From Cochliopodium minus (Eukaryota; Discosea; Himatismenida; Cochliopodiidae): 50,660 nt of DNA. The DNA is taken from NCBI GenBank assembly GCA_024220525.1, contig JAMYWO010000074.1, positions 1 through 50,660 of the forward strand, written 5' to 3'. Below are positions 190 to 43,472 of the stretch, piece by piece. The translations under genes were made by a program, and so were the position numbers. Each line of letters begins with the position of its first letter. Positions within the stretch are counted from its first letter, which is position 1. The notes beneath the pieces are model-generated. The model saw only the letters and a program-made list of their open reading frames with translations, was not told the origin of the DNA and searched no databases.

Positions 190-1194
190 TGGGACGTTGA
201 CTTTGTGAAACATGTTGAGACCTTTAACTGCGCTAATAAGAGAAATGTCTTGAGGAGTTGAAACAACCACAGCACCATCAATAGGAACTCTCTGAGTCAA
301 AGTCAAATGAGCATCTCCAGTTCCTTAAATAAAAAATTTTTTTTTTTATTAATTTTTTTCATTGAAACATTGATTTTTTTCATTTAAAACATTTTTTTTT
401 TGATTTTTTTACCTGGTGGAAAATCAATGACTAGTATGTCTAAATCACCCCACTCTACTTTCCTCAACATCTGTTCAAGTGCAGACATGACCATGGGACC
501 TCTCCAAACAATGGGGTTGTCCTCATTAGGAAGCATGAATCCCATTGACATCGCTTTTATTCCATAGTTTTGTAAAGGTATCATTTTGTTAGTGGTTTCA
601 CTGATTTCTGGTTTTCCGGATAAGTTCATCATTCTTGGAACTTTTTATTTTATAAAAATATTTTTTTCTCTCATTAATTCATTTAGTTCATTTATCATTT
701 TTGTTGTAAGATTTATTTTTTATTTTCTCATAATTTTTTTTTACCCGAAGGACCGTAGATGTCTGCATCCAAAATCCCAATTCTCTTCCCAAAAGTTTCC
801 AAAGCAATTGCCAAATTTACTTTGATTTAGTAAATAAATTAAAGATTTTTTATTTTTTAAATTTTTTATAAATCGATTCAAATATTATTTTTGATCCAAA
901 TGTTTTTGAAGATATTGATAATAGGGATAGATGTTTTAATAATCAATATATTAAGGCTTGATAATAATTATTTTCTTTTATTTATTTACCAGATATTGTA
1001 GATTTTCCTACCCCTCCTTTTCCACTCGAAACTGCCAATATCTTCTTTACCCCATGCAATTCTGGCTTTTGGATTGATTGGGGATTAGTATTGTGCTTGG
1101 TATGCTGGGTATTGTTATGCCATCTTTTTTTCGTGGTGAAGAATTTAGAGATGGGGATGAATTTGGACTGATAATTGACCTTGAATTTGAACAT
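190..1194 (-). CDS. NUBPL: NUBPL/Ind1 Fe-S P-loop ATPase, 5' four exons
   Basis: Mitochondrial Mrp/NBP35-family ATPase that delivers Fe-S clusters to respiratory complex I. Exons by splice phase: 990-1194, 745-819, 413-640, 190-323. The first 45 residues are basic, hydroxylated and poor in acids, like a mitochondrial presequence. The deviant Walker [11 protein letters not shown] follows, then DADIYGPS, a conserved WRGPMV segment and VIDFPPGTGD. The last exon here ends at VNVP. The C-terminal exon is absent to the left but is found at 43188-43472 in the same phase. The two parts give 308 codons including stop, close to the human protein (319 aa). The start ATG at 1194 is the only one that gives the targeting sequence. 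Confidence 0.93.
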
Positions 1195-1488
1195 ATTTTT
1201 TTTTTCAATTCTTTGATCTTCTTTGATTCTTTCAATTTTATTTTTATTTTTTTCAGAAAAAATTATTCTCTGGAATTAATTGATTTTAAATACTTTAACC
1301 TTTAAATAACTAAATTATCATCAATGTAATAAATTTAACAAACAAAAAGTTGAAACAAAAAAGATTTGAGTTTTCTAGGTTTTCACAAACCCATAAAGCT
1401 CGAAAAAAATCTTTAATAATTAATGTGAATAATTGAAGAATTTAAACTTTACACAAACTAGTAAAAATTTATTAGATTTTTAAAAGTT

Positions 1489-2466
1489 TTAATTTTTCTT
1501 TAAAATTGGATTTGGAATGATTGTTCCAAGAAAACCGAAATATAATTCCAATATGATTTGCAAGATAGGAAAAGGGACCCTCAGCTTCATTCTTTTTAAA
1601 CATAAAAGAATAGTTTCGACCTTCTCTTTCTTTTTTTTATCAACATACTTATGATCGTTTTTGTTCCAGTATGTTAAATAATCTACTTTTAGATTATTCG
1701 ATTTGAATCTTTTGTATGAATCCATAAATGAATAATTAACACCAAAACTTGTTTTCGCAGAGACAAGATAATAGACCAAACGATATTTTTTACAAACCAA
1801 AATCATTTCTTTTAAAATCTCCTCTTTACTATTCTCCTCATTGTTAAATCCTTCAATAGAATCTATCTTATTCAACATTAAAACAATTGGTAGTTCATCT
1901 ATGTACTTTATTTTCTCTTCTTCATTCAATTTACTAAATAGTTTCTCTTTTTTGTTTTCATAATTATATTTTTCTTCGCTGAATTCCAAAATATATTTCT
2001 CAATCAAACCAATTTTATTGTATTCACAAACCAATATATAGCCCATTCCTTCTTTAACATAATTTTCCATATTCAATTCTACTTCTATTCTTTCTATGTA
2101 TTTATTTATATCTATTGTGTCCAATATTTCCAAAAGAACTTTTTCTTTCTCAATCCATTTTCCTTTTATTTACAGTTTCAAATGTAAGGGTGTATTATTG
2201 TATTGAATGGCTGATAAATTATATAAATTTTTTATTTTTACTGTATGAATCTTCAAAAAAGGTATTATCATATCTGCAATCAAGAAATATCTCCTGAATG
2301 AATCTGATAATTAGGCTTGATTTTCCACTCTCTTATTTTTCAATCAAAAAAATATAATTTGAAAAGAATCAAAAAAATATGTTTAATATTTACGACAAAT
2401 CCCAAAAACCATCATGATTGCTTGATTAGAAAAATCTATTGTTGGTTTCGTTTTTTTATTCCCCAT
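1489..2466 (-). CDS. Ras-like small GTPase with degenerate switch II
   Basis: Three exons (2394-2466, 2242-2331, 1489-2162) give 278 aa. G1 is GICQSGKSS, made by splicing. The effector region YDNTFFEDSYRKW resembles the Ras YDPTIEDSY. G4 is LNKID and G5 is SAKTS. The G3 position reads LDTIDIN instead of DTAGQE, so the glycine and glutamine needed for switching and hydrolysis are missing. The N-terminus MGNKKT fits N-myristoylation (Gly2, Thr6). The C-terminus ends PILKKN with no CAAX cysteine. The C-terminal half is longer than in ordinary Ras. Its start lies only 50 bp from the NSUN2 stop on the same strand. Ras superfamily is sure; subfamily and activity are not. Confidence 0.85.
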
Positions 2467-2515
2467 TTTTTTTTTTTAATTTTTTATAATTTTAATTTCA
2501 GTGAAATAATAAATT

Positions 2516-5528
<3,013 letters not shown>

Positions 5529-5744
5529 TGTTATTAACTCAATATATGAAGATGTTAGATGGGTTTCAATTTTTTTATTTTTTTTTTTTTTGATAATTTT
5601 GTTGGAATTTTTATTTTTTGAGAAATCATTCTTTTTTTCTTTAGGCTTTGGAGACTTTGATAGAATGTTGACAAGACATACTTTTAATTTTTTTAAAAAC
5701 TTTATTAAATACATTTGAAAAGATTGCGATGTTTTCTTTCCTTA

Positions 5745-7218
5745 TTATTCGTTGTGAAGAAACTTAAAAATATACATCAACAAACGACGAGGCAAAAGAG
5801 ATACTAGATTACCTTTTCTTCTTCTCATCATTAACATATAAATTTTTGCTACATTTTGTTTGTTGTAGACCTGTAAAAAAGTAAATTTTCACGGAATGAA
5901 AAAGTGTTATAATTAAATAAACAAAATTTTACTAGTCTTTCATAAATAGAACTTCTTATATTAGGGTCAATATCTTTATTATTCTCCATATTAATTACTC
6001 TGATAACTGCATTTTTATACAAAGAGTCCAAAATTGAACTTTTAAAATTTAAAGAGAATAATTTTTTGTGAAAAAAAAAATTTTATTTTTACGATGCTCC
6101 TGGGGAAGAAAACTCATTTGCAGCAATATCCAAAAAACACAAGATTCTATTTTTATTTAATGCATTAGCAATAGATTGTATACCAGTGTCTCCTATATTA
6201 TTGCTGTGTCTTTTTAAATTGAAATAAATTGGAATAAAGAAATAAATAAAAAGATTTACAGATTTAAAAAGATTAATGATTTGTTGATTGACAAAAAGTT
6301 GGATATTGTTTGGGCTCCCTCATTCCCGATTCGGTTGTATGAGAGCTGCAAATTTTGGATTGTTTCGTTTGTCATCAAAGCAATGAACAACTGGGTGATT
6401 CCTGTATCTCCTATTTCATTCATTCTTAGGTTGAGAGAAACGAGTGTTTTGTTGAATGATAAATTCTCCGAAAAGATTTTGAGATCATTCCCTATCTTGT
6501 TGAAGGAGAGATTCAGACAAGTCAATCCTTTGTTTGATTTTAATGCATTTGAAATCTTTTCTGCTCCTCTTTGTCCTAATCCACAATTTCTATCAAATAA
6601 AAAAAAAAAAGTAAATTTAGGATAAACGAAAATGAATAAGATACATATAGAAATAAAATTTGAGATTGATTTATATCAGAATTTAACATTATTTATAGGA
6701 AATATGAAATATACATTTTTGTGAACTATATATCCTCATAAATTATTACTAACTTTCAATTGAAATTTCAATTTCATTTACCTGAGATGTAATGTCTTTA
6801 ATCTGCTTCCTTCAAGGAGATACCTTTCAAACATAACACCACTAGTAAAATCAAAATTATTCTCTCCAAGATACAAATGCTTCGTCTTCCCTTCCATAGC
6901 TTGAATCAATACCTCCTCCAATTTATTATTCCTCATCATCTTGAAGCTATAATCCAAAATCTTTCCTTTCTTCATCTCCTCCTTTTCTTTTCTTTCCTCC
7001 GTTTCAATTTTATTCTCATTCACTATTTCTTTTTGAGGCTGATTATACATTCTATCAAAATTGTTGTATTTTATTGCATTATTATTATTGTTTTGAATGT
7101 ATATGGGTTGATTATTGTTATTATAATTGTTATTGTTAATATTGTTATTATTTGTGTTATCTATTTGGAATTCTACTGAAACTATTGATTTTTTCTTCTT
7201 TGATTGATTGAATCCCAT
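5745..7218 (-). CDS. Leucine-rich-repeat protein (RI-type), possibly myristoylated
   Basis: Five exons (6782-7218, 6260-6589, 6093-6209, 5933-6038, 5745-5870) give 371 aa. Residues 1-100 are Asn- and Lys/Glu-rich; the start MGFNQSKKKK fits an N-myristoylation signal with a basic patch. From about residue 110 there are ribonuclease-inhibitor-type LRRs of the pattern L-L--N-IGD-G---I---L--N. The C-terminal about 60 residues are helical and end in a Leu/Arg-rich stretch. No catalytic domain is visible, so a scaffold role at a membrane is only an inference. The gene shares a 250-bp divergent promoter region with RAD51B. Confidence 0.82.
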
Positions 7219-7468
7219 TTATGGAAAGAAAATTTTGAAAACTAAATTTACCAAATTTTTTTTTATTTTATTAAATATCCTGACGAATTTTTCTTTTTGT
7301 TCATCCACAAAATCATTCAAAATGAATCCGCGAATTTTAGGTTTCCTTTAACAAATATTTCCAGGTTGAATTTTGTATCTTTTCAATATATGAAAAATAA
7401 AAAAAAAAAGATTCTTGTAGATAAAAAAATTGACCCTATTTTGTATTATACAGAAATTAATTCATCAT

Positions 7469-8701
7469 ATGAACAAATTATTGAAAAGATTTTTAAAGGA
7501 AGAAAAATATTCGGATTCTCTGGAGAAATTAAAGAAAAACGATATAAACACCATAGAAGATTTGATATGTTCTTCATCATCCATATTCGAGATAGTTCAT
7601 AAATGTGATATTCAACCAGAAATGGCAGAAGAAATAATAAGAATTATCAGCGAAAAAAATTCACCAAAATCAACAACAGTATTCGAAATGTTGGAAATGG
7701 ATAGCAAGAATATACATCTATCTACCATGCATCAAGATTTGGATAAGGTATTATGTGGAGGGATAAAATCATCGAGCATAACAGAAATATGTGGTAAATG
7801 AAAATTGAAAAAAAAATGAAATTTTTGAAAACAAAATCAATCAAAAAACCTAATATAATTAATGTAACAATACATGCACAATAATCAATTTTTAAAAGGA
7901 TCAAATGGAGTTGGGAAAACTCAATTTTGTATGATGATGAGCGTAATTGCAAGTCTTCCTAAGGAGAAAGGTGGGTTGGGAGGAAAAGTATGTTACATAG
8001 ATACGGAAGGAACATTTTCACCAAAGAGAATAATAGAGATATGCAGCAGCAAATTCAAGGATATACTCACAGAAAGAAACGAGTTGGAAGAAATTTTCGA
8101 GTCAATAAAACAATACAGAATATCCACTACTAATTCTTTGATCCAATTTTTAAAAGAGTTGGAAATTTTGATTATCAAAAATAATTTCAAGTTTATTGTT
8201 ATTGATAGTATTGCAGCTTTGTCAAGAATCGATTCTAATATGGTCCAAACTAAATTGAAATTAGCCAATGAGGCACAGATTCTAAAAACTTTGGCTGCTC
8301 AGTTTAATATACCTATTTTATGTACAAATCAAGTGACTGCTTCAAAAAATTCTAAATTTTCTTTCGAAAAAAATAATGATTTTTCTTTTTTGAGAAACAA
8401 AAACTCTTTAAAACTCATCCCCGCTTTGGGTCCTTTGTGGTCTCATTGTGTAAATACTCGAATCATCATGGAATATGGAGATACACAAGACAAAAAGATT
8501 TTTAATATTGTAAAGTCTCCTGTCAGCAAAGTTTGTTCTTTCACTTACAGTGTTGATGTTTCTGGGATTGTCTTTGATGAGGGTCCTGATGATATTGATG
8601 GAAATTTTTGGGAAAGGGATATTCACACTAGAGCCAATTTTGTTGAAGGTGGTAATGCTACTGGGCAACATAATGTCATTCAAAACAAAAACCTTTTTTG
8701 A
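7469..8701 (+). CDS. RAD51B: RAD51 paralog, RAD51B type
   Basis: RecA-family ATPase; RAD51B works in the BCDX2 complex for homologous recombination. Two exons (7469-7793, 7899-8701) give 375 aa; human RAD51B has 384. Walker A GSNGVGKTQ is completed by the splice; GKTQFCMMMS, KGGLGGKVCYIDTEGTFS and the late LGPLWSHCVNTRIIMEY block match RAD51B better than RAD51, DMC1 or XRCC3. Walker B is FIVIDSIA. The N-terminal helical segment has the length seen in RAD51B. The ATG at 7469 is the first in frame; the bases before it are A-rich. A Phe/Asn-rich insert near residue 270 is unlike animal copies. Confidence 0.9.
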
Positions 8702-8764
8702 TCAAATTTTGCTTTTTATTTTTCCAATTAATATTATAAAAAATATAAAAAAAAAAAAAAAAAA

Positions 8765-9542
8765 ATGAATTTTAAAATATTTTTGGTCATCTTTTTATCT
8801 GTTATCTTCTATGCATCTTCAGCTGATATTTTGAGATGTTATATTGAAGGGAAATCTTGTGTTGATTATTCTGAGAGTGAATTATTGAGATCATGTGGAC
8901 AATCAATGTCTATTTCTGAAACATGCCAATGGAGACCAGATGGCCTTGTATAATATATTTCATACCTGATATATAAAATTTACCCTTTTATTTTTTTTTC
9001 CCAAATATTAGGATCCTACTTCTTTTGTTCAAGTTAAATATACCAAATCAGCTGATGGTATAAACTATTGAACTAAATATGAAATTATCATAAAAAAAAA
9101 ATATTATATATCTTCTTCATATTCAATATTTGGAAGCATAATTTTCATAATATCTGAATTATCACTAAAAATCAACAAATATTAATATTTTACGTTAAAA
9201 AATAAGGCATTCATTATTCTACTTTAATTATTCACATCACTGAAAAAATATCACGATAAAAAAGAATATAATTTTATATAATTGATAATAATTCAAAATA
9301 TAACTCATTTTCCGATTATTTTCAACAATTTTGATTCATTTACTTTGGAAATAGAATCTTATACCATCTACAGTGGACCAGATTGCTCTACTATCATCTT
9401 TGGACCTATTCAAAGAAACAGTTGTCGTTTTGATGAAATAGGGAATTACGGATCTTGGCTCTTATCTTCATCTGGAATCAACATTCCATATCTTACTTTG
9501 ATGATTGTTTTATTGTTTTTATCAGTGATGATTTATGCATAA
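8765..9542 (+). CDS. Small secreted or GPI-anchored cysteine protein
   Basis: Model of three exons (8765-8947, 9012-9057, 9355-9542), 138 aa. Residues 1-19 are a classic signal peptide ending near YASSA. The mature part has seven cysteines. The last about 20 residues (LTLMIVLLFLSVMIYA) are hydrophobic after a small-residue stretch (SSSG), as in GPI signals or a type I membrane anchor. The second intron is unusually long (297 bp) and its acceptor was chosen on phase, so a further small exon is possible. The start ATG follows a run of about 14 A, 63 bp after the RAD51B stop. Function unknown. Confidence 0.6.
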
Positions 9543-9657
9543 AGAAAAAGAAATAAAAAATGATTTATTAATTATTAAAACTGATTTAGAAAATTTCTTT
9601 TTCAAACATTATTAATTTCAAATAATAAATTAATAATTATTTAAGATAAATAAATTT

Positions 9658-10693
9658 TTAATTTTGATGCAATTTTTCTGCAGATAATAACAAACTTTTT
9701 TTCATCAATTGATAAGTTTTGGAACATCCATCTAAACATATTTCGGTCATTTGTTTGAGATCAGAGTAATCCATTTCTCCATTTTGGATCATGTGGGTGA
9801 TTTCGTTGGCAGAAGGCATGTAAGAAATAATGACATGTGATTGAGAAGTGTCCTCTTCTAATTCATTAGGATCTAAAAAGTTTCCCATTTTATCAACTTT
9901 TATCTTTTTTTTTTTTTGAAAAAATAAATAATTAAATAAAATTTAAAAATAAATAAATAAATAAATAAATAATTTTACCACTTTTGATGAAGCAACCAAG
10001 TCATACATATCAATACCTGCATCAGCCAAAGCAAGTGAAGCAACATTGATAGAAGAACTCAAAACACACCCGTCTGATTCTAAGACAAGTACGTAGACAT
10101 CAATGACTGATTTAGGAAATTTACTGAGTATGATGGATGACTCTAATGCTTTTTGCATCACGCTTTCTATTTCTTTTTCTCTTTCTTGTTTTTTTCTTTC
10201 TCCGCTTCTAGAGAAACTCGTGAACCTAAAGTCACAATGCAATTTTGCACTTTCACTGTTTTTGAAGAAAAATTATTTATATTTTTATTGAATGATCAAT
10301 AAAAATCTATTGAACAAATCATTGATAACCTTTATGTAATTTTGAAGATATTTTGTTTGTTGCTTTATTTATAATATTTTTGATTGATTTATTCCCTTTA
10401 TGAGATTTGATTGAATAGTTTTTTATAATCGATTAATAAGATTTTGGAAACTATAAATTGTTATTTTTGGATAATTTCTTGATAATTTACCTATATTGAT
10501 ATTTAATGGATTCTCTTGGACCAAATACTGTACATATGATCTTTGTCTTTCCACATTCCAAATATGCTGATCCATTTGCTTGACTGTTGATTCCTGTCTT
10601 CATAAATAAAGGTCTCAATTGCAATAAATTTCTTTTATCTCCTCTTTCACCATTATTTACAGAAAGTTTTTTATCATTTTCGAATCTGGGCAT
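9658..10693 (-). CDS. EXOSC6: Exosome ring subunit MTR3/EXOSC6
   Basis: RNase PH-like, catalytically inactive subunit of the RNA exosome core. Three exons (10491-10693, 9979-10249, 9658-9903) give 239 aa. RPLFMKTGINSQANGSAYLE and IICTVFGPRES are the RNase PH N-terminal motifs. LALADAGIDMYDLV matches EXOSC6 rather than EXOSC4/RRP41, as do LDPNELEE and the C-terminal LDGCSKTYQLM segment. The gene is convergent with the secreted-protein gene (115 bp between stops) and lies head-to-tail with the Clu gene. Confidence 0.92.
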
Positions 10694-10829
10694 ATATGTT
10701 TTAATTTCAATGTTTTCCCTTTTGTATAAATATTTAAGGATGATAATAAAGGGTGTTTTGATATTTTTCTTACATTTTTTTTTTTTTATTTTAAATTATT
10801 TTCAAAAAAGATAAAAAAAAAATCATTTA

Positions 10830-13800
10830 TTAAAGGGTGGTATTAAGATTGGAGGTTTTCAAGATGAGATTGACACTGTCACTGAAAGAGTTTGTAAAAT
10901 TTTCGTGCTCAGATTCAATCTGCTTTAACTTCTCGGCTGCCTGAGAAGAAGTGATAGAGTTGGAAAGAAACTTCTCAATGATTGACTGTTGACCACTGAT
11001 ATGACCAAAACGTGTTAAAAAAGAACTTCCAATTTTGCTTCCTTGTTTCAACAACAAGTTGCCATAAGTTTGAAGGGTTTTGATCTGATTTGGATCTACT
11101 TCTAATGATCTTAAGAAATATTCCTCAGCTCTAGTTACATCTCCCCAAAAATAGAGGAATTGGGCGTATTCTGCAAGAAGAGTGGTGTCCATATGGAGCA
11201 AGTTGATTGCTTGTTCGTAATATTTAGATGCACGTATCAAGTTGTCGTTGGTGGTGAGAGGATCAGCCAAAAGATCCCTTGAGGATTCTCCTCTGCTAGT
11301 ATCTCTATCTCTCAAGTTGTCCTTGGTATCCTTTCTGTTTTTGATTCTAAACTTGGCTTTTTCGACTTTGTTGATGATGTTTGCAAACTTTATGATGAGT
11401 TGAGGATCGGTAGGTCTTTTCTTTACTTCTTCTTCTATTGCATCGAGTGCTCTGTTGTAGTGACGCAAAGCTTCAAGATCGGATACTTGTAACAACCCTC
11501 TGTGCAAGTAATGAGTCAAAAACATTTCTGCTTGGATAGTTTCAATGATGTTCATGTGTTTCACTCTTACTCCAATATCTTTCAAGTTTGTGTATTCAAA
11601 TATTTGAGTGAGGGTGAATATTTCTGTGCTTGTTTCGAGCTCTTCCAAGATATCGTTTGTGAATTTGAGTCCCATCATTTCTATGATTCTGTTAAGAAGG
11701 ACATATTTCCCACTGAGTTTACCAAAATGGATCTTGGAGATTCTTTCTTTGAGATTTCCCAACTTTTTTATTCTTTCTTCGTTTAGTTTAAAGAAAGGAG
11801 TTAATTGTTCAGGAATGTATCTCTCCCAATAGGCTTTGGATTTTTTCAACAAGTATTCTTTTTGGATATTACCTGAAAGCAAAGCATTCAAGTTGTTGAT
11901 GATAAGGATATTGAAAGGTGCTTCCAAAGGAGACCTAACTGATTCCAATTTCTTTCTCATTAGATGTCTCAATCTATTTTTAACTATTCTAGCAAGAATT
12001 TCTACAAAAACGAGGTTATAGAAGTCTCCATTCTCTGGAATATGTTCAAACAAGTAACCGGAATATCTCATGTTGATTCCACAAGTGTGAAGATGGCTTG
12101 AAAGAGAAAACTTTGTGACTGGCTTCTTTGTTTTGAGGTATTCATTAAAATTGTTGAGGATTTCTGTAGATATTTTTGGGATTCTTTCTTTGATCAAAAA
12201 TATTGTTGCATCTTTTATTTCCTCGTTGTGATCTTTGGAATCTCTAGATTGAAAAGAACTGTATCCATCAGAAGAGAGAGGTGTTTTGTATGATTTGACA
12301 AATTCTGAGCGAAACAAGCAAAAAAAGTTTTGGCCATGCATTCCCAATTTCCCTTTTGGATAAACAGGAGGCATACTTCTGCTGTAATCAATGACATACA
12401 TTCTTTTATCTTTGTTGGATATGTGTCCTTCAAGATCGATAGCAGAATAAAGAAGTTTGTCTCTTCCCTTTCTCCCACACCAATGTCCTTTCAAGTTCAT
12501 GTTTTTGGAAGCAATCGAGATTTTTTCTAGAAGTTGTTCAGAGTCTGTATGCACGTCACATTCTTCTCCAGCGTTGTTTGATCCATACTTTAATGTCTCA
12601 CTTCCATTGATGGGCAAAATACTCATTGCAATTAATCTGTATCCTTTGTAATCAACAAGAGCCATCTTTTTTTTTTTTTTTCAATTGAAAAAAGGTTTAA
12701 GAGATTTAAAGTGAAAATTATTGTATGAAATATTTACCAATGGAAAAGAAAGGCCATCTACTCTTGCTCTAAAATAATCAATGCAACCTTTTAATTCATG
12801 TCCTGCAACTTTGTTTGCTGCCCACATTGGATCATGTCCTGTTTTTTTCAACTGTTCAAAAATTCCGTGTGCATCATTTGCAAACTTGAACAAGATATCA
12901 TTGACCTTGTATTTATCTCCACCAAGATAACCTCCGATCACAATAGGTTTGATAGTACGCATGTCCAAAGGTAATCTGTGCTCAGAAATGATCAATTTCC
13001 CATAAATAGTGGCACTCGCAACAAAGTCTTGTGCCAACTGAATAAGTTTCATGTTTGTTTCTTGAATATCTTCTGTGTTGGTTGTTCCTTTGAGCTGATC
13101 CAAATTTTCTATCAAGCTTTGAAATCTGCTGTTGAAAGATTCGTACTGAAACTGTTCTACCTTTGAATGCGACTTTTCTTGGAACAAAGGGGAGTCTGTT
13201 TCTCTTTTAATCTTGGGGGAGGATGGCAAATCTTCTGTGTTACTGTACAATGTGTTGCTTGAATTGGAATGAACAAGAGATGAACTCCCCTTTTTTGAAT
13301 ATTTAACTTCTTTATCTGATCCATCGCCATCACTATCCAATAATGAATTGATCACCAATTTTCTGGAATCTTTGAGTTTATTAGATTTTCTATCAACCAC
13401 TATATCAGTATCATCATCGTCATCGCCATCTTCTATCACCATATATCCATCTTGTACCTCATCTTCTGAATTCTTCTCATCATCCACACTTTGTTTATAT
13501 GTAACATTATCCACAGTATCCTCATCTTTGCTTTCTTCATCTCCAATTTGTTTATATCCTTCTTCCAAATTCTCTTCACTATTCTCCTCACTCTCTTTGT
13601 CTTTGATTTTATCAATAGGTGCATATCCATCTCCTTCGCTATTCTCTTCCGCAGAATCATCATTTCCAACCAATTTATATCCAGATGCAATATTTTCCTC
13701 TCCTTGCATCAATACCTCCAAATTATCAGTGCTTTTGTTATTATTGTTTTCTATTTGATTGTTCTTATTATTTGGGAGTGTTGTGAAAGAATTGTTGGAT

Positions 13801-14764: not shown

Positions 14765-14939
14765 TGATAAATAGAAATATTCTTTTTAAAAAGTTGATCT
14801 TTAATTTTTTTTTATTTATATATTTGTTTATTAGCTTAAATTAAATTACCGTACAAATTTAAAAAAAATCAAAAAGGGAGAAAACAAAGAATTATCTTGC
14901 ATCTATTGAAATACCTACCTTTATTTAAAATATATCAAA

Positions 14940-24584: not shown

Positions 24585-24640
24585 TAAAAATAAAAAATTA
24601 AAAAATAAAAAATAATAAAAAATTAAATTAAATATAAAAT
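24523..24640. repeat. (AAAAATA)n simple repeat
   Basis: 7-base A-rich tandem repeat in the intron after the P-loop exon of the kelch kinase. The same unit ends block C at 50660. Confidence 0.9.
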
Positions 24641-24647
24641 AAAATAC

Positions 24648-27887: not shown

Positions 27888-28408
27888 TATAAAGTTATCT
27901 AGAGTTTTATATATTGAATAATTCCAAACAATTTTATTTTTTATTTTATTTTATAAAGAGGAAATGATTTGTTTCAATTTTATTTTGAATTAATACTTCC
28001 TTTGAATCTTACTCTCGAACATAGATATCCTCATTTAATGTCTTCTCTTTATACTTTTGTCCAAAAATTAAAAGAGATTTTAAAATAATTAAAACTATAT
28101 CTACAAAGTTTTTATCTCACAATGATTTCACATTTTATTTTTCAATCTAATTTTCCTTTATGAGTAGAATTAAAAAAAAAGAATATCTAGTTTCCAAATT
28201 CAGATTCTGTGCTCCAAAATATTATAAATATATATTTTTAATCAAGGTTTGTTTTTTCATTGTAAAAATGAGATCACCATTTTCATTAAGTAAAAGAGTA
28301 AATAATTTGGATAAAATTTCATTTTCTTTCAAATTTAAATATTATTAAAATAAAGTCAAGGTGCTTGAAATAATAAAAAAAAATATCCAACCTTTGTTCT
28401 TCAATCAA
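27888..28408. promoter_or_regulatory. Divergent intergenic region
   Basis: Lies between the starts of the kelch kinase (minus) and the LRR phosphatase (plus). AT-rich; it must hold both promoters. A small 5' exon of the phosphatase could lie in it (there is an AG acceptor at about 28359-28360), but I could not phase one. Confidence 0.4.
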
Positions 28409-30113: not shown

Positions 30114-30361
30114 AAATAATAAATTTTGTAACATAAAACTTAAAATTTAATTGGTTTGTTGGATACATGAAATTGATCCTTATACTGTAAAGAATGCACA
30201 TATTTCAGATAAATCATTTTACAAAATCAAATTGGAATATATTATATCAAAGATTAAAATTGGCCCTTCACAACCATTCCAATTCGTAAACAACCGCTTT
30301 GAAAAAATTTATAAAAAAAAAAAATTTGAAGAAAAAAACCAGCACCCGAGGAAATATCAAA

Positions 30362-32652
30362 ATGATGAAACTCAAAAAGATTTCTAAAAAGCAATATCTC
30401 AACAATTCTGTCAAGTATTTCAGTTCAACAACCAAAAATAATGGACCTGTAAGAAAAATTAAAGATTATTTTTATAACAACATATATATTATTTTATTTG
30501 AAACTGACAAATACAACATTATGATTTTTAATATATAACACAATTTTGTTTCATTATTTAAAGAGAAAAACACAACTCTACATTAATGGAGAATGGATCG
30601 AAAGTAAAACCAAAAATTGGATCGATGTCCACAATCCAGCTACCAATGAGGTAGTTGCATTAGTTCCAGAGCCAACTAGAGAAGAATTGCAATATGCATC
30701 CGACTCTGCACAAGAAGCTTTCTCTTCATGGAGAAATACTTCAGTTACCACAAGAGTTAGACATATGTTCAAATTGCAAGCTTTGTTGAATCAACACAAA
30801 GATGAAATCGCAAAAAGCATTACTGAAGAACAAGGAAAGGTAAAAAAAAAATTATAAATATATTTCCTTTTTCAAATAAGAGATCAAAAAAAAAAAAGAT
30901 TTAATATTTCTCAATAATAATCAGCTTATAATCATTTTTTAAATCTTCCTTTTGATTTTTTATCTTCTAAAAATATCTTCTCTCATATTTAAAACAATTG
31001 ATCATATTTCATTATAATTTTGAATATAGACCTTAGTTGATGCTCATGGAGATTTGTTTCGTGGTATTGAAGTTGTTGAACACGCTTGCTCCACTGGAAG
31101 TTTGTTGATGGGAGAAACCCTCGAGAATTTGAGTAAAAACATTGATACCTACTCTTATCGTCAACCATTAGGAGTATGTGCAGGTATCTGTCCATTTAAT
31201 TTTCCAGCCATGATTCCATTGTGTAAAACTTGTTTTCTCCTTTTATTTCTTTTAATTTTTAATCATTCTCCATCATGATAGGGATGTTTCCTCTTGCTCT
31301 CACCACTGGTAACACTTATATCCTCAAGCCATCTGAAAGAGATCCTGGTGCAGCTATGCTCATCACCAAATTGGTAGAAGAATCTGGAGTACCAAAAGGT
31401 ATAAATTAATATTCAATTATATTTCCACAATAATATTCGAATTATATCAAATAATATCCTTTAAAGTATAATATCCCTATTTATGTTCTATTTTTTTTAC
31501 CATAAATTCTTTCACTTTCAAGGTGTTTTGAATATTGTCCACGGAACCAAAGATACTGTAAACTTTATTTGTGATGATCCTAACATTAGAGCTATCTCCT
31601 TTGTTGGTAAAAATAAAAACCAAATTTGCAATTAAAAATAAAACTTACAAACTAATTTTAAAAATATTAAAGGTGGAGATCTTGCAGGAAGACACATTCA
31701 CTCAAGAGGTACTGCAAACGGAAAGAGAGTACAATCTAATATGGCTGCAAAGAATCACTGCACAATCTTGCCAGATTCTGATAAAGAAACTACCTTGAAC
31801 ACCCTCGTAGGAGCTGCATTCGGAGCTGCAGGACAAAGATGTAAACCCCATTTATTTTAAATAATTTATTTTAAATTTATTTTTTTATTACAATTAGGTA
31901 TGGCTTTGTCTGCTGCTATTTTTGTAGGAGAAAGCAAAAAGTGGATCCCTGAACTCGTCGAAAAAGTCAGAAAATTGAGAGTAGGTAACGGTTTCAGTGA
32001 TAAATCTGATTTGGGTCCAGTCATCTCCCCTCAAGCTAAGCAACGTATCGAATCCTTGATCGAAAGTGGAGTAAAGGAAGGTGCAAAATTAGAACTCGAT
32101 GGTAAACCAAACAAAAAGTTTAATCTACTTTTCGAATCCATTTAAATATTTTTTTTAAACTTTTCTTTGTTTAAACAACTTTGATTATTTTATTTTTTGA
32201 TAGGAAGGGGAATTAAGGTTGAAGGATTTCCTAACGGTAACTGGGTTGGACCAACTGTCTTGTCTGGAGTTAAACCAAACATGAAATGTTACACTGAAGA
32301 AATCTTCGGACCTGTCCTCGTCTGCCTCGAAGTTGACACCCTCGACGAAGCTATCCAACTCACCAATAACAATCCTTACGGTAACGGTACTGCTATCTTC
32401 ACCAAGAGTGGAGCAGCTGCACGTAAATACCAATTCGAAATTGATGTAGGTCAAGTCGGAATCAATCTTCCTATCCCTGTTCCTTTGCCTATGTTTTCTT
32501 TCACTGGTTCCAGAAAATCTTTTCTTGGAAGCACTCACTTTTATGGTAAGACTGGTGTTGACTTCTTCACCCAATGGAAGACCATCACTTCTAACTGGAA
32601 AGATGACTTTTCTGGAAGTACTGTTTCTACTTCTATGCCTTTGCTCAAATAA
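30362..32652 (+). CDS. ALDH6A1: Methylmalonate-semialdehyde dehydrogenase
   Basis: CoA-acylating aldehyde dehydrogenase of valine and thymine catabolism, in mitochondria. Eight exons (30362-30448, 30564-30839, 31030-31222, 31282-31398, 31523-31606, 31673-31840, 31898-32101, 32204-32652) give 525 aa (human 535). Residues 1-28 are a basic presequence ending SVKYFSST. Hallmarks: [60 protein letters not shown], and the catalytic Cys in GQRCMALS, which is split by an intron. EEIFGPVL and [12 protein letters not shown] complete it. All phases close. The coding GC is higher than in its neighbours, suggesting high expression. Confidence 0.96.
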
Positions 32653-32877
32653 GTTGTTTGATGGTTACAAAGACTAATAAATTAATTTTTTTTTCTTCAT
32701 TCTTTTTATTTTAATTTTAATTTTTGCGCCAAAAGAATATTTCATAACGCCATCTTTTTTAAAAAATATATATATTTGATCGGCTTCTTGTTTATCATCC
32801 TTTCCTCTCCATATCAAACAAGTTAATAAAAAAAAAAAAAAAAATTGAATTGATTTCTTTTGTAATTTATTTAATTA

Positions 32878-33981
32878 ATGTCTGATGATTCTTCTGATTC
32901 TTTATCCTCCTCTACCAATTGGATTGATTCTTTCTGTTCCATGAATGGCAATGATTTGTTCGTATCTGTGGATGAAGATTTCATAGAAGACACTTTTAAT
33001 CTTACTGGATTGAAAAAAATGGTACCTCATTATAATTTAGCTTTGAAAACCATTATGGACATTGATATAGGTATAATATTTATTTATTTAAAGATAAGGG
33101 GAGTAAAATAAAATATAATCGAACATTTTGAAGGAAAAATATATAGCATATCAAATGATATTCATAATCCCCTTACATGGTTTTCATAGATTTAAATATA
33201 TATAAGCCAAAATATCCATTAAGATGGAAGAAATGCTCTTAGATATTGGTTTGAAATAGATAATGAGCTTAAATATCTTTTTGAGACAAAATATATAGTT
33301 GAAGGATTTTATAATCATAAATTATAACAATGTTTTGATCCTTATTGGAATCAACAAACCTCATTTTGTTCAATCAAGGATATAAAAACTCCCAAAGCTA
33401 ATTGAATTTATACCTTTCAAAAAAAAAAAAAAAAGATGAAATGTAAAACTTTTTTGTAAAAAAAAAAAAAGATTATTCAGAAATACAAAACATGGAGAAC
33501 ATAAGTGACGAAATAGACAAATCAGCAAATTTGTTGTACGGTATGATCCACGCGAGATTCTTGATAACTTCAAGAGGAATCTCCCTCCTTTCTCAAAAAT
33601 ACCGAAACGGAGACTTTGGAATCTGTCCTAGAGTTTTGTGTGATGCACAGAAGGTTTTGCCTGTTGGTTTGTCTGATCTTCCTAATCATAATACAGTTAA
33701 ATTTTATTGTCCTAAATGCAAAGAAATCTACAATAATGGTAAACCTAAATATTCTCATCTAGACGGAGCTTATTTTGGTAATTTAAAATTTTTTTATTTT
33801 ATTTGAAATTTTTTTTTAAAATAAAATTTTATTAGGGAGAACTGCCCCTCATTTATTGGAACTTTTGCATAGAGATCTTTTCAACTTTTCTTCCCATCCC
33901 CATTCTCAGTACATTCCCAAAATCTTTGGGTTCAAAATTCATCCTTCTTCCAAACTCCCTACTCAAGAAAATGATTTGTAA
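32878..33981 (+). CDS. CSNK2B: Casein kinase 2 regulatory beta subunit
   Basis: Dimeric zinc-stabilised regulator of CK2. Three exons (32878-33070, 33472-33777, 33836-33981) give 214 aa, against 215 in human. VDEDFIEDTFNLTGL and VPHYNLAL are diagnostic, as are LLYGMIHARF, GDFGICPRVLC, LPVGLSDLP and FYCPKC with the four zinc cysteines, and the C-terminal PKIFGFKIHP. The N-terminus keeps acidic Ser-rich residues for autophosphorylation. The first intron is 401 bp, much longer than usual here, and contains broken coding-like sequence. Confidence 0.96.
33100..33410 (+). pseudogene. Coding remnant inside CK2-beta intron 1
   Basis: The long intron reads as protein-like sequence in shifting frames: IIEHFEGKIYSISNDIHNPL, then KPKYPLRWKKC, then RYWFEIDNELKYLFETKY and later FDPYWNQQTSFCSIKD. 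The composition (Trp, Tyr, Cys, Pro) is unlike the other introns. It looks like a decayed copy of an unidentified gene with a few breaks. It has no place in CK2-beta itself. Confidence 0.45.
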
Positions 33982-34190
33982 TTTATAAAGAAATATAGTC
34001 AAAAAAAAAGGCATTGTTTTAATAGTTAAATAAATTAGAAAAGAAAAATAATTGTTCTTCACTTTCTAAATTTTGAGACAAACTTTATTCTTCATTCTTT
34101 TAAAAAGAAAATTTAAGTAACCAAGTCGTTTAAAGTCTTTTTTTTTATAAATTAATCTGTTTCAAACAATAAAAAAAAAAATTGAGATAA

Positions 34191-34526
34191 ATGAATTCCA
34201 ATGAGATTCTTTCCGAGATGAATAAATCTTTTGGAATGTGCATAAATTCAATAAATATGATAGATCCAGTCGAACAAGAAAAATCAATGGTTTATTTGAA
34301 AGAATTTTTGGAAAATGCCTCGAAAATCAAAAATAAAATAATTATTGAAGAAAATAATATCCCAGTAAACAATGAATTGTTGAAGGAAGAGATAATTGAA
34401 TTGGAAGAGGAGTTAAAAAGGAAAGATAATTTGATTGAGAAACATTTGACAAATCTATTAAAATGGAAGATGACACTTGAAAAATTAAACAAAGAACAAA
34501 TAAAATTGGAAAAAGAACCAAATTAA
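34191..34526 (+). CDS. MED28: Mediator subunit MED28
   Basis: Single-exon gene, 111 aa, of the RNA polymerase II Mediator head. The block EEELKRKDNLIEKHLTNLLK aligns with the human MED28 segment NELQRKDALVQKHLTKL, and ILSEMNKSFGMCINSI with its VDELESSFEACFASLV. Predicted helical throughout, with coiled-coil heptads. Shorter than the human protein because the Pro-rich ends are missing. It is convergent with the START gene (139 bp between stops). Confidence 0.82.
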   Translation: MNSNEILSEMNKSFGMCINSINMIDPVEQEKSMVYLKEFLENASKIKNKIIIEENNIPVNNELLKEEIIELEEELKRKDNLIEKHLTNLLKWKMTLEKLNKEQIKLEKEPN

Positions 34527-34665
34527 AAGAGAAATTCAAGTTTGGAGAAGGAATTAAAAAAAAAAAAAATTTAAAAATCAATTAGAAAGTTTTTTTTTTT
34601 TGAAAAGGATTTTATATTATTGTTTTAAATTGACTTGTCTTTCCTTAAGCAAAAAAAGAAATAAT

Positions 34666-36138
34666 TTATTTTTTCTCTTTGAGATATTCAGGATATTTCT
34701 TGGCAGCTTCGTAGAGCTTTTCGAGAACACCTGGAGCAACTTTGGAGGTGACAGTGTTGGTAACCCAGTTAGGAATCCAACCTAAGGAAGAAAAAAAGGG
34801 AAGATAAGAATAAAGATAAGTCAGAAAAGTAAAAAGAAGTTTTGATATAATTATATTGAATTAAAAAGAAGCCAAACTATTATTTTAAAAGAATATTAAT
34901 CTCATTCTTCAAGATTAAGAGGAAATTTGTCAAATGTAAGATAATGTTTTGAATATTCGCTATCATATAAGGTTTATATATTCAAAAAGAAAAATTTGAT
35001 GGTCAATTTTATTTACCTTTAGGATCACTTTGAGTGATGTATCTCAATTTACAACCACCTTCATCTCTATCAATTAAATAACCAGTGCAAAAAGAATGTC
35101 CTCTAACAAAATTTTTGTCAACAGGCTTCTTAGGATGCTCTGCACTTCTGTTGAAGATGATATATCTTCCTTTTTCATCATCTCCTCTCCATGTACGATG
35201 GGTTACAAAATCACGCTAAAAGAAGAAAGAATTTGGTAAGTTTAATTGAGTATAATTTCATAATTATTTGATTAACAAAGTGCTCAATTTAAGAATAGTG
35301 ACCAAATCATTTTATTAATTTGAATATAAAAGTATAAATTTTTTTTCTTTGTCAATATTGTAGTGAAGAAGGATTGTTTTCCTTAATTAATCTTATATTT
35401 TGATTTAATTCCAAAATATTTTTATTATATTTAGTTTATCTACATTTTGATTGAATTAATTAGCTTTATTTTTCAATCTACAACAAAGTAAATTTATATT
35501 TTTGAATATATCTCAATCATAAATTTACAGTAAAATTATATATTAATTAATATTCCTTTATAAAATTTTTTTAGTTTACATTTGCAAGTGGAGATGGAAC
35601 TTTTGCTGCATAATAACCAATTTCATTGGTTTCATTGAGCATTTCAATAATATTTCCTTCAATCATATTTTGATCCCATACTTTACGGTAAGCATGATCA
35701 TTCAAAAGATCGAACAATGTTTTTGCTTCAACTCCATCAAATTTAGCGATAACCTTGACCAAATTGATAGTAGCTTTATCATCCTAGATTATTTGAATAG
35801 AATGCATTAATAATGTTTTAAATTATAAAGATACTTTAACAAAAATTAAGGCTAAATGCAATAATATTTAAATTTGGAACATATAGAAATAGTTTTTACA
35901 GGTCTTTTGTAAACATAGATAAAATCTCCTTTGTATGATTCAGTCCATGGTGATACTGTATGATCTTCTTCTGCTAATCCAATAAAGTATCTAAATAATA
36001 ATATATTTAGTATTGGAAAGGTGGGAAAGCGTTATTGAAAAACATAAAATTTCTTCAACATCAATAATCAAAAAATATCTTTTAAATTTAAAAAATTTAC
36101 TTATAATCTTCCTCAGTGAATGGTTTTGATTCTGTCAT
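34666..36138 (-). CDS. START-domain lipid-transfer protein
   Basis: Five exons (36101-36138, 35900-35990, 35580-35783, 35017-35215, 34666-34781) give 215 aa, the size of a free-standing START domain (PCTP/STARD2 class). FDLLNDHAYRKVWDQNMIEG is the typical START helix-strand, followed by RDFVTHRTWR, YIIFNRSAEHP, GGCKLRYITQSDPKGWIPNW and the C-terminal helix beginning APGVLEKLY. It should bind one lipid in a hydrophobic tunnel and move it between membranes. The ligand cannot be read from sequence. No targeting signal. Confidence 0.92.
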
Positions 36139-36360
36139 TATTGATTATTGGGAATTTTTGATATAAATTTTTTTTTTTATTTATAATTTTAAACTGTGAA
36201 AAAAATAAAAATTATTCTCATTTGTGTAAGAATTAAACAATTTGGATCAAATCTAAAGATCCATACTTCAATTTGGATCTTTTAATAATATTCATTTTTT
36301 TTGACAATTTATTCATTTAAATAAATTAAAAAAAAGTTAATTTGAGACAACTATCAAGCA

Positions 36361-38696
<2,336 letters not shown>

Positions 38697-38955
38697 ATTC
38701 TATTCTGTTTTTTTCTTTGTAAAAAAAAAATTGTTGAAATAAATAGTTTTACATAACCCACATTCTTTAGAACCATACCTTATCACATTCTAGAAATTCT
38801 TTAAAAAATAGTTAATTGTTGAGTTTTTTTTGCCCGCCCCTTTTTTAAAAACCGTTAAATCTTATTTTCTTCTTTGAAAAATAAACTGAAAATTTTAAAA
38901 TAAAAAAAAATTCCTAAATCAAAAGAATTTAAATCAATTCTTATATTTATATAAA

Positions 38956-39348
38956 ATGCCAAACAGAAGCAGTATTAAGGATTTAGACTCAAATGATAAG
39001 AGATCAACAGCGAAAACTTATGTGAGAAGAAGGTAAATTTAAAAAAAAAAACTGTTTTTAATTTGTTATAAATTGTTTTATGACATTAATAGTAAAAAAA
39101 TTACAAGAACTGCAAGTAGAATAAGCATCATACAAGAATTAAATTCCATAAAGAAAAAAATTGATAATGAATTCTCTGAAAAAAACAATTCCCAAAATAA
39201 CATATCTGATGTACCAAAATCTGTTGATGCAGGTGAATCTTCAAATAATTGTAATTTATTTGGTCAAGAATTAGAAGTATTCAGAATGCTCCAAACTCTT
39301 GATAGTTTTTCTCTATGTGTTGATGTTGAAATTGAAAATGTAAATTGA
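38956..39348 (+). CDS. Small unknown protein
   Basis: Two exons (38956-39032, 39093-39348) give 110 aa, with a consensus-like donor and acceptor and closing phase. Basic, Ser/Arg-rich first 45 residues (KTYVRRS, RTASRISI), then a short helix, an Asn/Ser-rich stretch and a hydrophobic C-terminal segment (EVFRMLQTLDSFSLCVDV). No family recognised. The RTASR core is a typical basophilic kinase site. Confidence 0.65.
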
Positions 39349-39500
39349 TGATCTTTATTGATCAACAAAGTTATTTAATGTATAAATACTTTTTAATTAA
39401 AAAATTTTTTGGAAAATTTTTTTAAATTTCATATTTTATTATATTTCATATTTTAAAAAAAAAAGGGGGAAAGAGAAATGCCAATTCTCTTTCAGTTTTT

Positions 39501-39784
39501 TTAAAAATAACCCCTTTTTTTAATATGATTTTGCAGAATCTTCCTGGTAACCCAGATAATTTGGTCAGATGATTGCCCAGACTTACATGGAACAATTGTG
39601 GGGGTTTCCTCTGGAAAATGCTCCTTCATATCTTGATAGAATGTCAAGTTTAATGTGTAAATGAAGATATATCTATTCCCTAAGTGGTTGTTTTCTTTGA
39701 GGTATATATCAATGGCTAAAAAAAACCTTCTGGTAATCGATGGACTTTTCAGTATTGCAAAAGAATATTCAAATTAGGCTTAAT
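39501..39784 (-). CDS. Unidentified coding exon without start codon
   Basis: A minus-strand frame stays open for about 94 codons to a TAA at 39501-39503 and is richer in GC than its surroundings. It reads protein-like throughout, for example RRFFLAIDIYLKENN, GNRYIFIYTLNLTFYQDM, PEETPTIVPCKSGQSSD and IIWVTRKILQ. Two good acceptors lie inside it, TTTTTTTTAG before 39715 and TTACCAG just upstream, so the true exon may begin there. I found no convincing 5' exon between 39785 and 40100. It may be the last exon of a small gene or a decayed one. Family not recognised. Confidence 0.5.
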
Positions 39785-40167
39785 TGATAATAAAAAAAGG
39801 GCGAAAATTTATTATTGAGGATAAATATCAAGAAACTTTTTCAACGTGGTTGAATTAGTAACATACTTTTGACCTATTTTTGTTTCTCTCTTTGATTCTT
39901 AATAAAGTAGGGAGATATTAAATTATCTTCATTTAAAAAAAAATTATATTTCATATTTTTCTTTTTTTTATATTGTTGAATATCGCATATTTTGTATGGT
40001 CATTGGCTTAATTAAGTGAATTATTTTTCTTAATGTTACCACTTACTTTAATTACCTATGCTGTTAAAACAAAAATCAGATCATAATGAAAAAATTAAAA
40101 AGGCAAATTTGTGAATCTTTTTTCTAACAGTAATGAAAGGTCAAAAAAAATACATAATAAAAAAAAA
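39785..40167. other. AT-rich stretch upstream of LRR gene
   Basis: No gene seen apart from possible 5' exon pieces for the minus-strand frame at 39501-39784, for example a 28-codon open frame beginning MKYNFFLNED that ends in a stop. It should contain the promoter of the LRR gene. Confidence 0.4.
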
Positions 40168-41502
40168 ATGGAAATTAACTTGTTTTCAGGTGATTGTCCA
40201 AATAAAAAATTGTTAAAAATAAATTCTACCCTAACTTCAATTGATCTTTCTGGAAATGAAATTGGAAAAGAAGGAGCAAAGTATTTATCTGATTGCTTAA
40301 AAACAAATTCTTCCATAACTTCAATTAATCTTTATGCAAATGAAATTGGAAAAGAAGGAGCAAAGTATTTATCTGATTGCTTGAAAATAAATTCTTCCAT
40401 AACTTCAATTGATCTTCATGGAAATGAAATTGGAAAAGAAGGAGCAAAGTATTTATCTGATTGCTTAAATATAAATTCTTCCATAACTTCAATTAATCTT
40501 TATGCAAATGAAATTGGAAAAGAAGGAGCAAAGTATTTATCTGATTGCTTAAAAACAAATTCTTCTATAACTTCAATTAATCTTTATGCAAATGAAATTG
40601 AAAATGAAGGAGCAAAGTATTTATCTGATTGCTTAAAAACAAATTCTTCTATAACTTCAATTGATCTTTCTGGAAATGAAATTGGAAAAGAAGGAGCAAA
40701 GTATTTATCTGATTGCTTAAAAACAAATTCTTCTATAACTTCAATTAATCTTCATAGAAATGAAATTGGAAAAGAAGGAGCAAAGTATTTATCTGATTGC
40801 TTAAAAACAAATTCTACCCTAACTTCAATTAATCTTTATAGAAATGAAATTGGAAATGAAGGAGCAAAGTATTTATCTGATTGCTTAAAAACAAATTCTA
40901 CCCTAACTTCAATTAATCTTTGTCTAAATCAAATTGGAAATGAAGGAGCAAAGTATTTATCTGATTGCTTAAAAATAAATTCTACCCTAACTTCAATTGG
41001 TCTTTATAGAAATGAAATTGGAAATGAAGGAGCAAAGTATTTATCTGATTGCTTAAAAACAAATTCTACCCTAACTTCAATTAATCTTTATAGAAATGAA
41101 ATTGAAAATGAAGGAGCAAAGTATTTATCTGATTGCTTAAAAATAAATTTTGCCCTAACTTCAATTATTCTTAATAGTAATGCAATATCAAATGAAGGAG
41201 CTCATTTTTTGTTGGAGTCATTGAAATACAATGTTTCATTGACAGAAATGGATCTAGGATTTATGAGAACAATTGACAAAGAATTGTTGAATGAAATCGA
41301 AAAGATTTTGATAAAAAATGTAAATATAGGAAAAAAAATAAAATTGGAGAAAGACAAATTAAATAAAGAAAATGAAAGGAGGTTCAAAAAACTTGAAGAA
41401 GAAAATCAAAATCTAAAAAGATTAATTGAAAATTTAATGTTAAGTAAAAAAGACTACCAAATAACTGAAATATTTGAAAGGATAGAAAATATATACTTTT
41501 AA
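40168..41502 (+). CDS. Repeat-expanded LRR protein (RI/NLRC type)
   Basis: 444 aa in one exon. After about 18 residues come twelve 28-residue leucine-rich repeats of the consensus NSTLTSINLYRNEIGNEGAK plus YLSDCLKT, spanning nearly the whole protein to about residue 354. The C-terminal 90 residues form a Lys/Glu-rich coiled coil. The start ATG at 40168 follows an A-run; the frame is open a little further up. The repeats form a horseshoe for protein binding. No enzyme domain. Related in type, not in sequence identity, to the LRR gene at 5745-7218. Confidence 0.88.
   Translation: MEINLFSGDCPNKKLLKINSTLTSIDLSGNEIGKEGAKYLSDCLKTNSSITSINLYANEIGKEGAKYLSDCLKINSSITSIDLHGNEIGKEGAKYLSDCLNINSSITSINLYANEIGKEGAKYLSDCLKTNSSITSINLYANEIENEGAKYLSDCLKTNSSITSIDLSGNEIGKEGAKYLSDCLKTNSSITSINLHRNEIGKEGAKYLSDCLKTNSTLTSINLYRNEIGNEGAKYLSDCLKTNSTLTSINLCLNQIGNEGAKYLSDCLKINSTLTSIGLYRNEIGNEGAKYLSDCLKTNSTLTSINLYRNEIENEGAKYLSDCLKINFALTSIILNSNAISNEGAHFLLESLKYNVSLTEMDLGFMRTIDKELLNEIEKILIKNVNIGKKIKLEKDKLNKENERRFKKLEEENQNLKRLIENLMLSKKDYQITEIFERIENIYF
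40222..41229 (+). repeat. 84-bp tandem repeat array, 12 units
   Basis: Twelve in-frame 84-bp units, nearly identical in DNA. Units 1-7 (mostly NSSITSI with GKEGAK) and units 8-11 (NSTLTSI with GNEGAK) form two subfamilies, as expected from block duplication. Unit 12 is diverged and acts as the cap. Variable positions cluster in the few residues after the LxL motif (SG, YA, HG, HR, YR, CL), that is on the exposed concave side. Confidence 0.95.
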
Positions 41503-42156
41503 AAAAACATACCAATTTTGTATGATTTGGAAGAGTTAGCATTACAGTGAAATGGTTCAAAATTTTATTCAAAAAAATGAATTCAAAATTAAAAAAAATA
41601 TTCTTTTCTTTTTTGTTTGATATATTTTGTTCATAGATTCTAAAATCAAAAAAGATCAACAATATATTTCTCAATAATGATCTAATAATCATTGATTTAA
41701 ACCAAAAGTATCTTTAAATCTCATTTTATTAATCAATTTAATTTTCAGCTTCAATTCATTTTATAACCTCATTTCTTCATCATCTAAACAATACAAAAAA
41801 TGAGTTAAATTTCACTTTATTAATATATTCCATTTTAGCTTCTTTTTCGAAATTGAAATTTATATTTTGGAAAAATTTTCAATAATAACACCTATTATTA
41901 GAGTAATCAATTAAATAATTAAAATGTCAAAGTTTACTTAAGAGTATCAATTATTTGTGAATGTAATCAATATTTGGTGAATATTTATTTGAAAGGTGAA
42001 AAAAATCATTTTATTATTTTTTTTTTATAAATAAATTAAAAAAAATCAAATCCTAAAAATTAATTAAAAAGTATTAGAAATTAGAAATTAATAAGTGAAA
42101 ATCATTAACTCAAAGGAACCCTCTACTTCTTTCATTGTATAAAATTGTTAAAAATA
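41503..42156. other. AT-rich spacer
   Basis: 654 bp with no supportable gene. A minus-strand frame at 41384-41692 overlaps the LRR 3' end and has Phe/Ile-rich composition typical of chance frames. Confidence 0.5.
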
Positions 42157-43091
42157 ATGAGCACAAAATCAAAATTAATCACACAAACCGTCAAATTATC
42201 ATTCCTCGATAATTGCAAAGATGTATTGTAAGATCAATCAAATTTCCTAAACTGATTCATATAAAATAATATTGATTATAGTACCAAAAAAAATATAAAT
42301 TCAACTTATCAAAATATATAAATTTTAATTTTCAAAACATTCTAAATTTATACTTGAATCAATAACATAGTGATGAACAAACAAGGCCATTCTTTGTTCA
42401 GATGCTCACAAACGGGAATATAAGGGATGAATTGAGCAAGATAATCGAGAAAAATAGCCAATTATTCGGCAAGAATGTTGTCAACAATCAGATGTTAGAT
42501 ACTAGAATAATCGATGAGATGAATGAATCAAGCAGCGAATTGAAAGTCAAAGAAAAAGCATCTCCATCCAAGATAGCAATAATGGAAGAGGGCGAAAAAG
42601 AATCCAGCTTCCATAACAACATACATAACAACAATTTCAATCCATCCATTGAGATAAGCGAATTTTGTGACAATCCATTGCTAAAGATGAAGCAAAGCGT
42701 GTTCTCAGATCTCAATGTAGAGGATCCAAACCGCATCATCTCCTCCCAAATGCTCACCAAAAGCAAATTCAACCTCACTTCCTCCCTCCCTAAGAACAAT
42801 CGCAACAAAAGGATCAATGAAAATGCAAATGCAGGATCCTTGCCAAAGAATACCACCTCTCCATCTGTATGGATCACCGTCAAAAATTGGCTCGATAAAG
42901 CAATCAAGAAGATCGGCCAGATGACCAATGATTTCTTACATTTCCTTTCCACTCAACGTAAAGCTTTGCTCATCGATTTTGGAATCTTGATTTTGGGCGT
43001 TGCTTTGCTTTTCACTGCTGGTGTCATTCAAGATCCTTCTTCCCTCTTCCAAACTATCTTCAAGAAATTGATTTCCTTTTTGGGATTTTAA
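42157..43091 (+). CDS. Tail-anchored protein of unknown function
   Basis: Two exons (42157-42227, 42371-43091) give 263 aa. The N-terminal about 60 residues look folded and helical (FLDNCKDVLFDEQTRPFFVQ, IRDELSKIIEKN). The middle is Ser/Asn/Lys-rich and probably disordered. Near the C-terminus a Trp- and Lys-rich amphipathic helix (VWITVKNWLDKAIKKIG) precedes one membrane span (GILILGVALLFTAGVI) with about 20 residues after it. There is no signal peptide, so a tail-anchored topology with the bulk in the cytosol is likely. Coding GC rises toward the 3' end. Family not recognised. Confidence 0.72.
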
Positions 43092-43187
43092 TATATTTCT
43101 TAACATAGTTTTTTTGTTCTTTTAAACTTTGAAAAAATTTTTTTTGTAAATAGAAATTTCAAAATTAAAAAATTTAAACAAAAAAAT

Positions 43188-43472
43188 TTATTCAATAACT
43201 ATTTTGATTTTCTCTTCCTTTTTTTCCAATCTATCCAATATCTTTCCTGCGATATCTATGTAGAGTTTTGCTTGATCAGAGTTTGGATTTGATGCGACGA
43301 TGGGTTTACCAGAGTCAGAGGTTTCTCTTATGTTTGTGCTGAGTGGGATCTCTCCCAAAAAGGGAATCTCCAACTCTTTTGCTTTGTTTTTGGCTCCATC
43401 TTTACCAAATATGTACTCTTTTTTACCACAACCACATTGAAAATAGCTCATATTTTCCACTATCCCTATGAT
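43188..43472 (-). CDS. NUBPL: NUBPL/Ind1 last exon
   Basis: An acceptor (AAAAATAG) and a 95-codon exon beginning IIGIVENMSYF in phase 0. The conserved CGCG (usually CPxC) metal-binding cysteines follow, then IFGKDGAKNKAKEL, PFLGEIPLSTNIRETSDSG and a terminal helix. This is the exact C-terminal continuation of the exons at 190-1194, which stop at VNVP; homologs read VNVPVLGVVENMS across the junction. To its right the sequence runs into a T-rich repeat and the N at 43500, after which an unrelated kinase gene begins. Confidence 0.92.
   Translation of the reverse strand: MIGIVENMSYFQCGCGKKEYIFGKDGAKNKAKELEIPFLGEIPLSTNIRETSDSGKPIVASNPNSDQAKLYIDIAGKILDRLEKKEEKIKIVIE

Follow-up and report, generated by a model that had tools for sequence, protein, structure and literature searches.

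The two halves of a split NUBPL-like gene very probably lie on pieces of one scaffold that were joined in the wrong order

In the DNA analysed here, a NUBPL-like gene breaks off at the first base of a contig and its apparent last exon lies 43 kb away on the same strand, which raises the question of whether the gene is truly split or whether the pieces that carry it have been misplaced. The stretch that we analysed (the window) spans positions 1 to 50,660 of contig C74, which is 166,097 bases long and extends past the window, in an assembly of 44.65 Mb and 598 contigs that its intron-containing genes mark as eukaryotic; the G+C content of the window is 27%. The window consists of three blocks, A (1..24521), B (24523..43499) and C (43501..50660), which are separated by single Ns at 24522 and 43500. 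A preliminary description had placed the right end of block B directly to the left of position 1 and did not mention the N at 24522.

We found that the gene is encoded on the minus strand and that four of its exons lie at the left end of block A. Exon 1 (990..1194) contains a deviant P-loop (Walker A) and the beginning of the PF10609 match, exon 2 (745..819) and exon 3 (413..640) have GT/AG boundaries, and exon 4 (190..323) ends in ...FHKVNVP in phase 0 with the donor GTAAAA; the three introns between these exons are all GT...AG. The first part of intron 4 (1..189) is interrupted at the left end of the contig, within an array of units of about 6 bases that is T-rich on the plus strand. The missing exon 5 with the stop codon (43188..43472, minus strand) lies at the right end of block B, follows the acceptor AAATAG, is in phase 0 and starts IIGIVENMS. 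These boundaries, on both sides, can be read in the sequence as the preliminary description gave them. The same description had both ends running into T-rich repeat, which holds for the left edge of block A; at the right edge of block B there are 27 bases between exon 5 and the N at 43500, nearly all A/T, which brings the known parts of intron 4 to 216 bases. The joined halves do encode a full-length protein, although its length is 308 amino acids plus stop and not 307. The PF10609 profile is matched from 2 to 166 by the part from exons 1–4 (E 5.5e-74) and from 167 to 245 by exon 5 (E 9.1e-22), and the joined halves cover 2–245 of 246; the two parts are consecutive (166, then 167), in agreement with the claim that they neither overlap nor leave a gap. 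Residues 42–296 of the joined protein align with an iron-sulfur cluster carrier protein, which is the best solved chain, and the protein also has a DADIYGPS motif and a basic N-terminal extension.

We looked in the readable genome for a separate NUBPL last exon, which the preliminary description had named as evidence against its reading, and did not find one: exon 5 as a query had three matches at E ≤ 10, namely itself (1.7e-57) and weak matches on contigs C68 and C307. Exons 2–4 matched themselves, C68, C307 and, weakly, C28 (E 2.9e-6), and there was no exon-5 match on C28 in the readable genome. On both C68 and C307, the matches to the two parts of the gene are on one strand, no more than about 1.1 kb apart. 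These relatives bear on the idea that the gene is truly split over 43 kb and that trans-splicing joins the transcripts of separate loci. Such a process would be compatible with halves that end in an intact donor and an intact acceptor with matching phases, as they do here; however, both halves end at assembly edges (the contig start and a single N), the relatives on C68 and C307 keep both parts close together, and nothing peculiar to the NUBPL-like gene is required to account for the split. Among the titles listed in the literature on NUBPL and trans-splicing, there was no split NUBPL.

A second gene, unrelated to the first, is also cut at block edges. There are two copies of this kelch-kinase gene in the window, both on the minus strand. 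Copy 2 (43606..47599, in block C) is unbroken across the intron in question and served as a template: between an exon ending ...VKK and an exon starting VNSLLDP, it has an intron of 497 bases that is T-rich on the gene's strand. In contrast, copy 1 is in two parts. Its kelch part lies, together with the exon that precedes the kinase core, at the left edge of block B (24648..27642), where this last exon (24648..24842) ends ...VAVKK and is followed by 125 bases of the corresponding intron, which is cut at 24523. The kinase core exons of copy 1 (49619..50484, consisting of 50484–50221 and the exon with RDLKSANVL...) lie by the right edge of the window, where the continuation VSSFLDPQLLRREL... is preceded by 176 bases of similar intron that exits the window's right end in an array of units of about 7 bases, A-rich on the plus strand. 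Thus, one and the same intron is interrupted in both unpaired halves, in each case within an array of a 7-base unit. No Pfam family was matched by the N-half of the gene, and within it, at 25731–25903, a 30-base unit repeated 5.8 times codes for EEKRKSVNNI-type repeats. Elsewhere in block B, at 40209–41201, an 84-base unit is repeated in tandem (11.8 copies, 93% match) and codes for leucine-rich repeats of the type NSSITSINLYANEIGKEGAKYLSDCLK.

When we searched the readable genome with the N-half exon, we found at least two matches (100% and 60%) and no others at E ≤ 0.001. The C-half exon had at least 19 matches; two are close (100% and 90%), and the identity of the remaining 17 is 26–41%. 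One N-half and one C-half form the intact pair in block C, and the other pair consists of the half at the left edge of block B and the half at the right edge of block C. The unpaired halves are most likely partners, which puts block C to the left of block B; together with block B before block A, this gives the order C-B-A. It could instead be that just B and A are misplaced and that the kelch-kinase pieces represent two incomplete copies that do not belong together, in which case C before B would be wrong and B before A still right. DNA to the right of 50660, outside the readable genome, could hold another N-half belonging to a third copy, which would weaken the placement of C before B but not that of B before A. 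We consider this unlikely, given that the readable genome holds at least two N-halves and two close C-halves with one of each lacking a partner, and that both unpaired halves are cut in the same intron and in the same kind of repeat.

Taken together, these data indicate that blocks B and A are nearly certainly misordered, and the gene structures suggest that block C very likely stands before block B. The most likely true order is therefore C (43501–50660), B (24523–43499), A (1–24521), with the present orientations kept, as opposed to the deposited A-B-C: block C belongs to the left of block B, block B between C and A, and block A to the right of B. The preliminary placement of B before A is supported by the NUBPL-like gene, and the unrelated kelch-kinase gene, which also shows blocks out of order, extends it to C before B before A; that B stands directly before A, with no other DNA between the gene halves, is something that we infer. 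The NUBPL-like and kelch-kinase genes are each cut in an intron with matching phases, and the missing halves lie at the edges that the order C-B-A predicts. The edges at which genes are broken coincide with the single Ns at 24522 and 43500 and with the contig start at position 1; at 50660, the edge is just the end of the window. At neither N of the window (24522 and 43500) does any reading frame remain open over more than 40 codons in both directions, and the two Ns are probably chimeric joints, A|B at 24522 and B|C at 43500.

The right end of block A has features of its own. The stretch 24400–24516 resembles a stretch on C120 (86% over 28 query residues), with one in-frame TAG in each. In a search of the genome with the end of block A, there were two overlapping matches, both on C120, and a repeated element may form the end of block A. 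Further to the left, block A carries a tRNA-Pro (AGG) at 22975–23045 and a tRNA-Ala (AGC) at 23856–23930, both on the plus strand.

The same pattern is found in two other contigs, C400 and C598, each of which has one N and was read end to end. In C400 (30,708 bases, N at 26022), a RuvBL2 gene on the minus strand exits at the left end and re-enters at the right end. The first 400 bases match the TIP49 profile from 279 to 340 (of 347), and the sequence at 30.3–30.6 kb matches TIP49_C from 1 to 61, both on the minus strand; the donor and the acceptor share phase 1, and the joined piece aligns with RuvBL2 (E 6.3e-49). A search of the readable genome at E ≤ 0.01 gave these two halves and nothing else. 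The internal N of C400 has a formin FH3 gene on its left, an open frame that lacks a Pfam match begins at the N, and no long reading frame crosses it. In C598 (10,038 bases, N at 2378), a RasGEF-type gene has a phase-2 donor at 9888 that fits an acceptor at 194. The contig contains a RasGEF domain, and the second half of the gene matched no Pfam family. Strong matches to the halves are confined to their own sites; weak ones are also present on C43 and C223, with none that spans the junction. The argument for C598 is one of phase and uniqueness, and this is the weakest of the four cases.

Because the end joins the start in both C400 and C598, one could propose that the pieces are circular molecules in which a contig end naturally meets its start. 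We consider this highly improbable: in C74, the deposited order is at odds with B before A as well as with C before B, a combination that is impossible for a circle with correct internal joints, C74 is 166 kb long and continues beyond the window, and the internal N of C400 is not crossed by any long frame. In all, the order is reversed and the orientation kept at four of four testable junctions in three contigs (the window, C400 and C598), with the limit that these junctions were selected by searching for contigs that show cut genes in this pattern. Trans-splicing would have to account for three other unrelated genes that are cut in the same way at the edges of contigs or blocks, and we regard it as almost certainly not the cause of the split NUBPL-like gene.

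A reversed order with the orientation kept at all four tested junctions could also be produced by real scrambling of the DNA, such as a developmental rearrangement, with the deposited order being right for one form of the genome. Against scrambling, the breaks are located at single Ns, at contig ends or at the end of the window, beside simple AT repeats; all four gene breaks are intronic; and an N elsewhere, at C1:6847, cuts an exon. Scrambling is, in our estimate, extremely improbable, and it is hardly credible that exons of several housekeeping genes are truly out of order in one genome form and reassembled by DNA rearrangement or trans-splicing. We conclude with high confidence that the split NUBPL-like gene is a scaffolding artefact, a relocation; trans-splicing and DNA scrambling are both very unlikely. 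As part of the same explanation, and with the same confidence, the gene is an ordinary five-exon gene with the B/A junction inside intron 4.

To see how far the pattern extends, we considered other single Ns and contig ends. We saw eight single Ns in the DNA that was read, two in the window and six beyond it (C1:6847, C73:9066, C75:7411, C200:14461, C400:26022 and C598:2378); of these contigs, C1, C73, C75 and C200 were read in part. At C1:6847, a Rab exon halts mid-exon at the N, and a neighbouring copy (about C1:5.6–5.9 kb) reads on; the missing tail of this exon was not placed among the 49 Rab-like matches returned. The region 500–6846 of C1 holds a cluster of several Rab-like GTPase genes, the last of which is the one cut at 6847. 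By eye, a reading frame appears to continue across the single N at C200:14461, which may be a mere ambiguous base; some single Ns may therefore not be bad joints. Contig C75 begins, by eye, a few bases inside an apparent tRNA-Ala gene (1–70, anticodon TGC), which is another sign of piece ends cutting genes.

We surveyed 600 bases at each end of C401–C420; seven left ends were N, leaving 13 of the 20 contigs usable. Inspection by eye of the 600-base ends of these 13 contigs revealed no convincing gene running from end to start, and C404, part of whose sequence is N, gave a weak candidate by eye. The full sequences of C500, C550 and C590 contain no N at all, and by eye there was no end-to-start gene in their first 1.8 kb and last 1.5 kb. 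With regard to size, 11 of the 20 contigs C401–C420 follow a falling series (30.7 to 28.6 kb), and the other nine are much shorter (11–22 kb), as if shortened after sorting. The misordering is probably recurrent in the assembly and an order error across the whole genome is likely, a generalisation for or against which the ends of C401–C420 do not speak.

How could such an artefact arise? Simple AT repeats break assemblies, and long AT repeats make up most of the piece ends at the four junctions tested. We propose that the assembled pieces broke in long AT-repeat introns and that a later step would have strung neighbouring pieces together with one N as a spacer, keeping the strand and reversing the order. 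One possible cause is that the direction of links was read backwards: a misread link direction would give a negative gap estimate, for which a scaffolder writes a minimal spacer, here one N. Alternatively, a reversed path may have been output with just one of the two operations, so that the order was reversed and no complementing took place. The agreement in orientation at four of four junctions argues against a random assignment of strands.

The NUBPL-like gene is biologically ordinary, and the finding matters to users of the assembly, not to biology. If single-N joints are generally order-flipped, gene models, synteny and claims of split genes will be wrong at such joints, and a split gene found there should not be taken for trans-splicing. 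If this is true, there would be a mechanical remedy, which is to reverse the order of the pieces in each scaffold and keep their orientation.

With regard to known systems, the protein shares with NUBPL/Ind1, a P-loop NTPase of the Mrp-NBP35 family (PF10609), the near-full PF10609 match, the P-loop and DADIYGPS. In contrast, it lacks the CxxC motif at the conserved site, where the C-terminal cysteine pair is C-G-C (FQCGCGKKEYIFG; FQCGCGKK, at 43428–43436 on the minus strand, in exon 5), one residue short of CxxC. The corresponding residues are CPHC and CPCC in the relatives on C68 and C307. The CxxC cysteines are described as functionally important in PMC6196649. We named the protein NUBPL-like because of C-G-C in place of CxxC, a difference that may reflect a lineage-specific alteration of the cluster site.

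The order error has its own counterpart in relocation in the dnadiff sense, defined in PMC3253782 as adjacent blocks of the same sequence that are inconsistently ordered. The passages of the general assembly literature that we examined do not describe this exact error, a one-N spacer with flipped order. As in a relocation misassembly, the pieces are on the right scaffold and in the right orientation, the order is wrong and the breaks are at artificial joints. The case differs in that the same reversal is found in all three multi-block stretches that were read through, with a single N between blocks.
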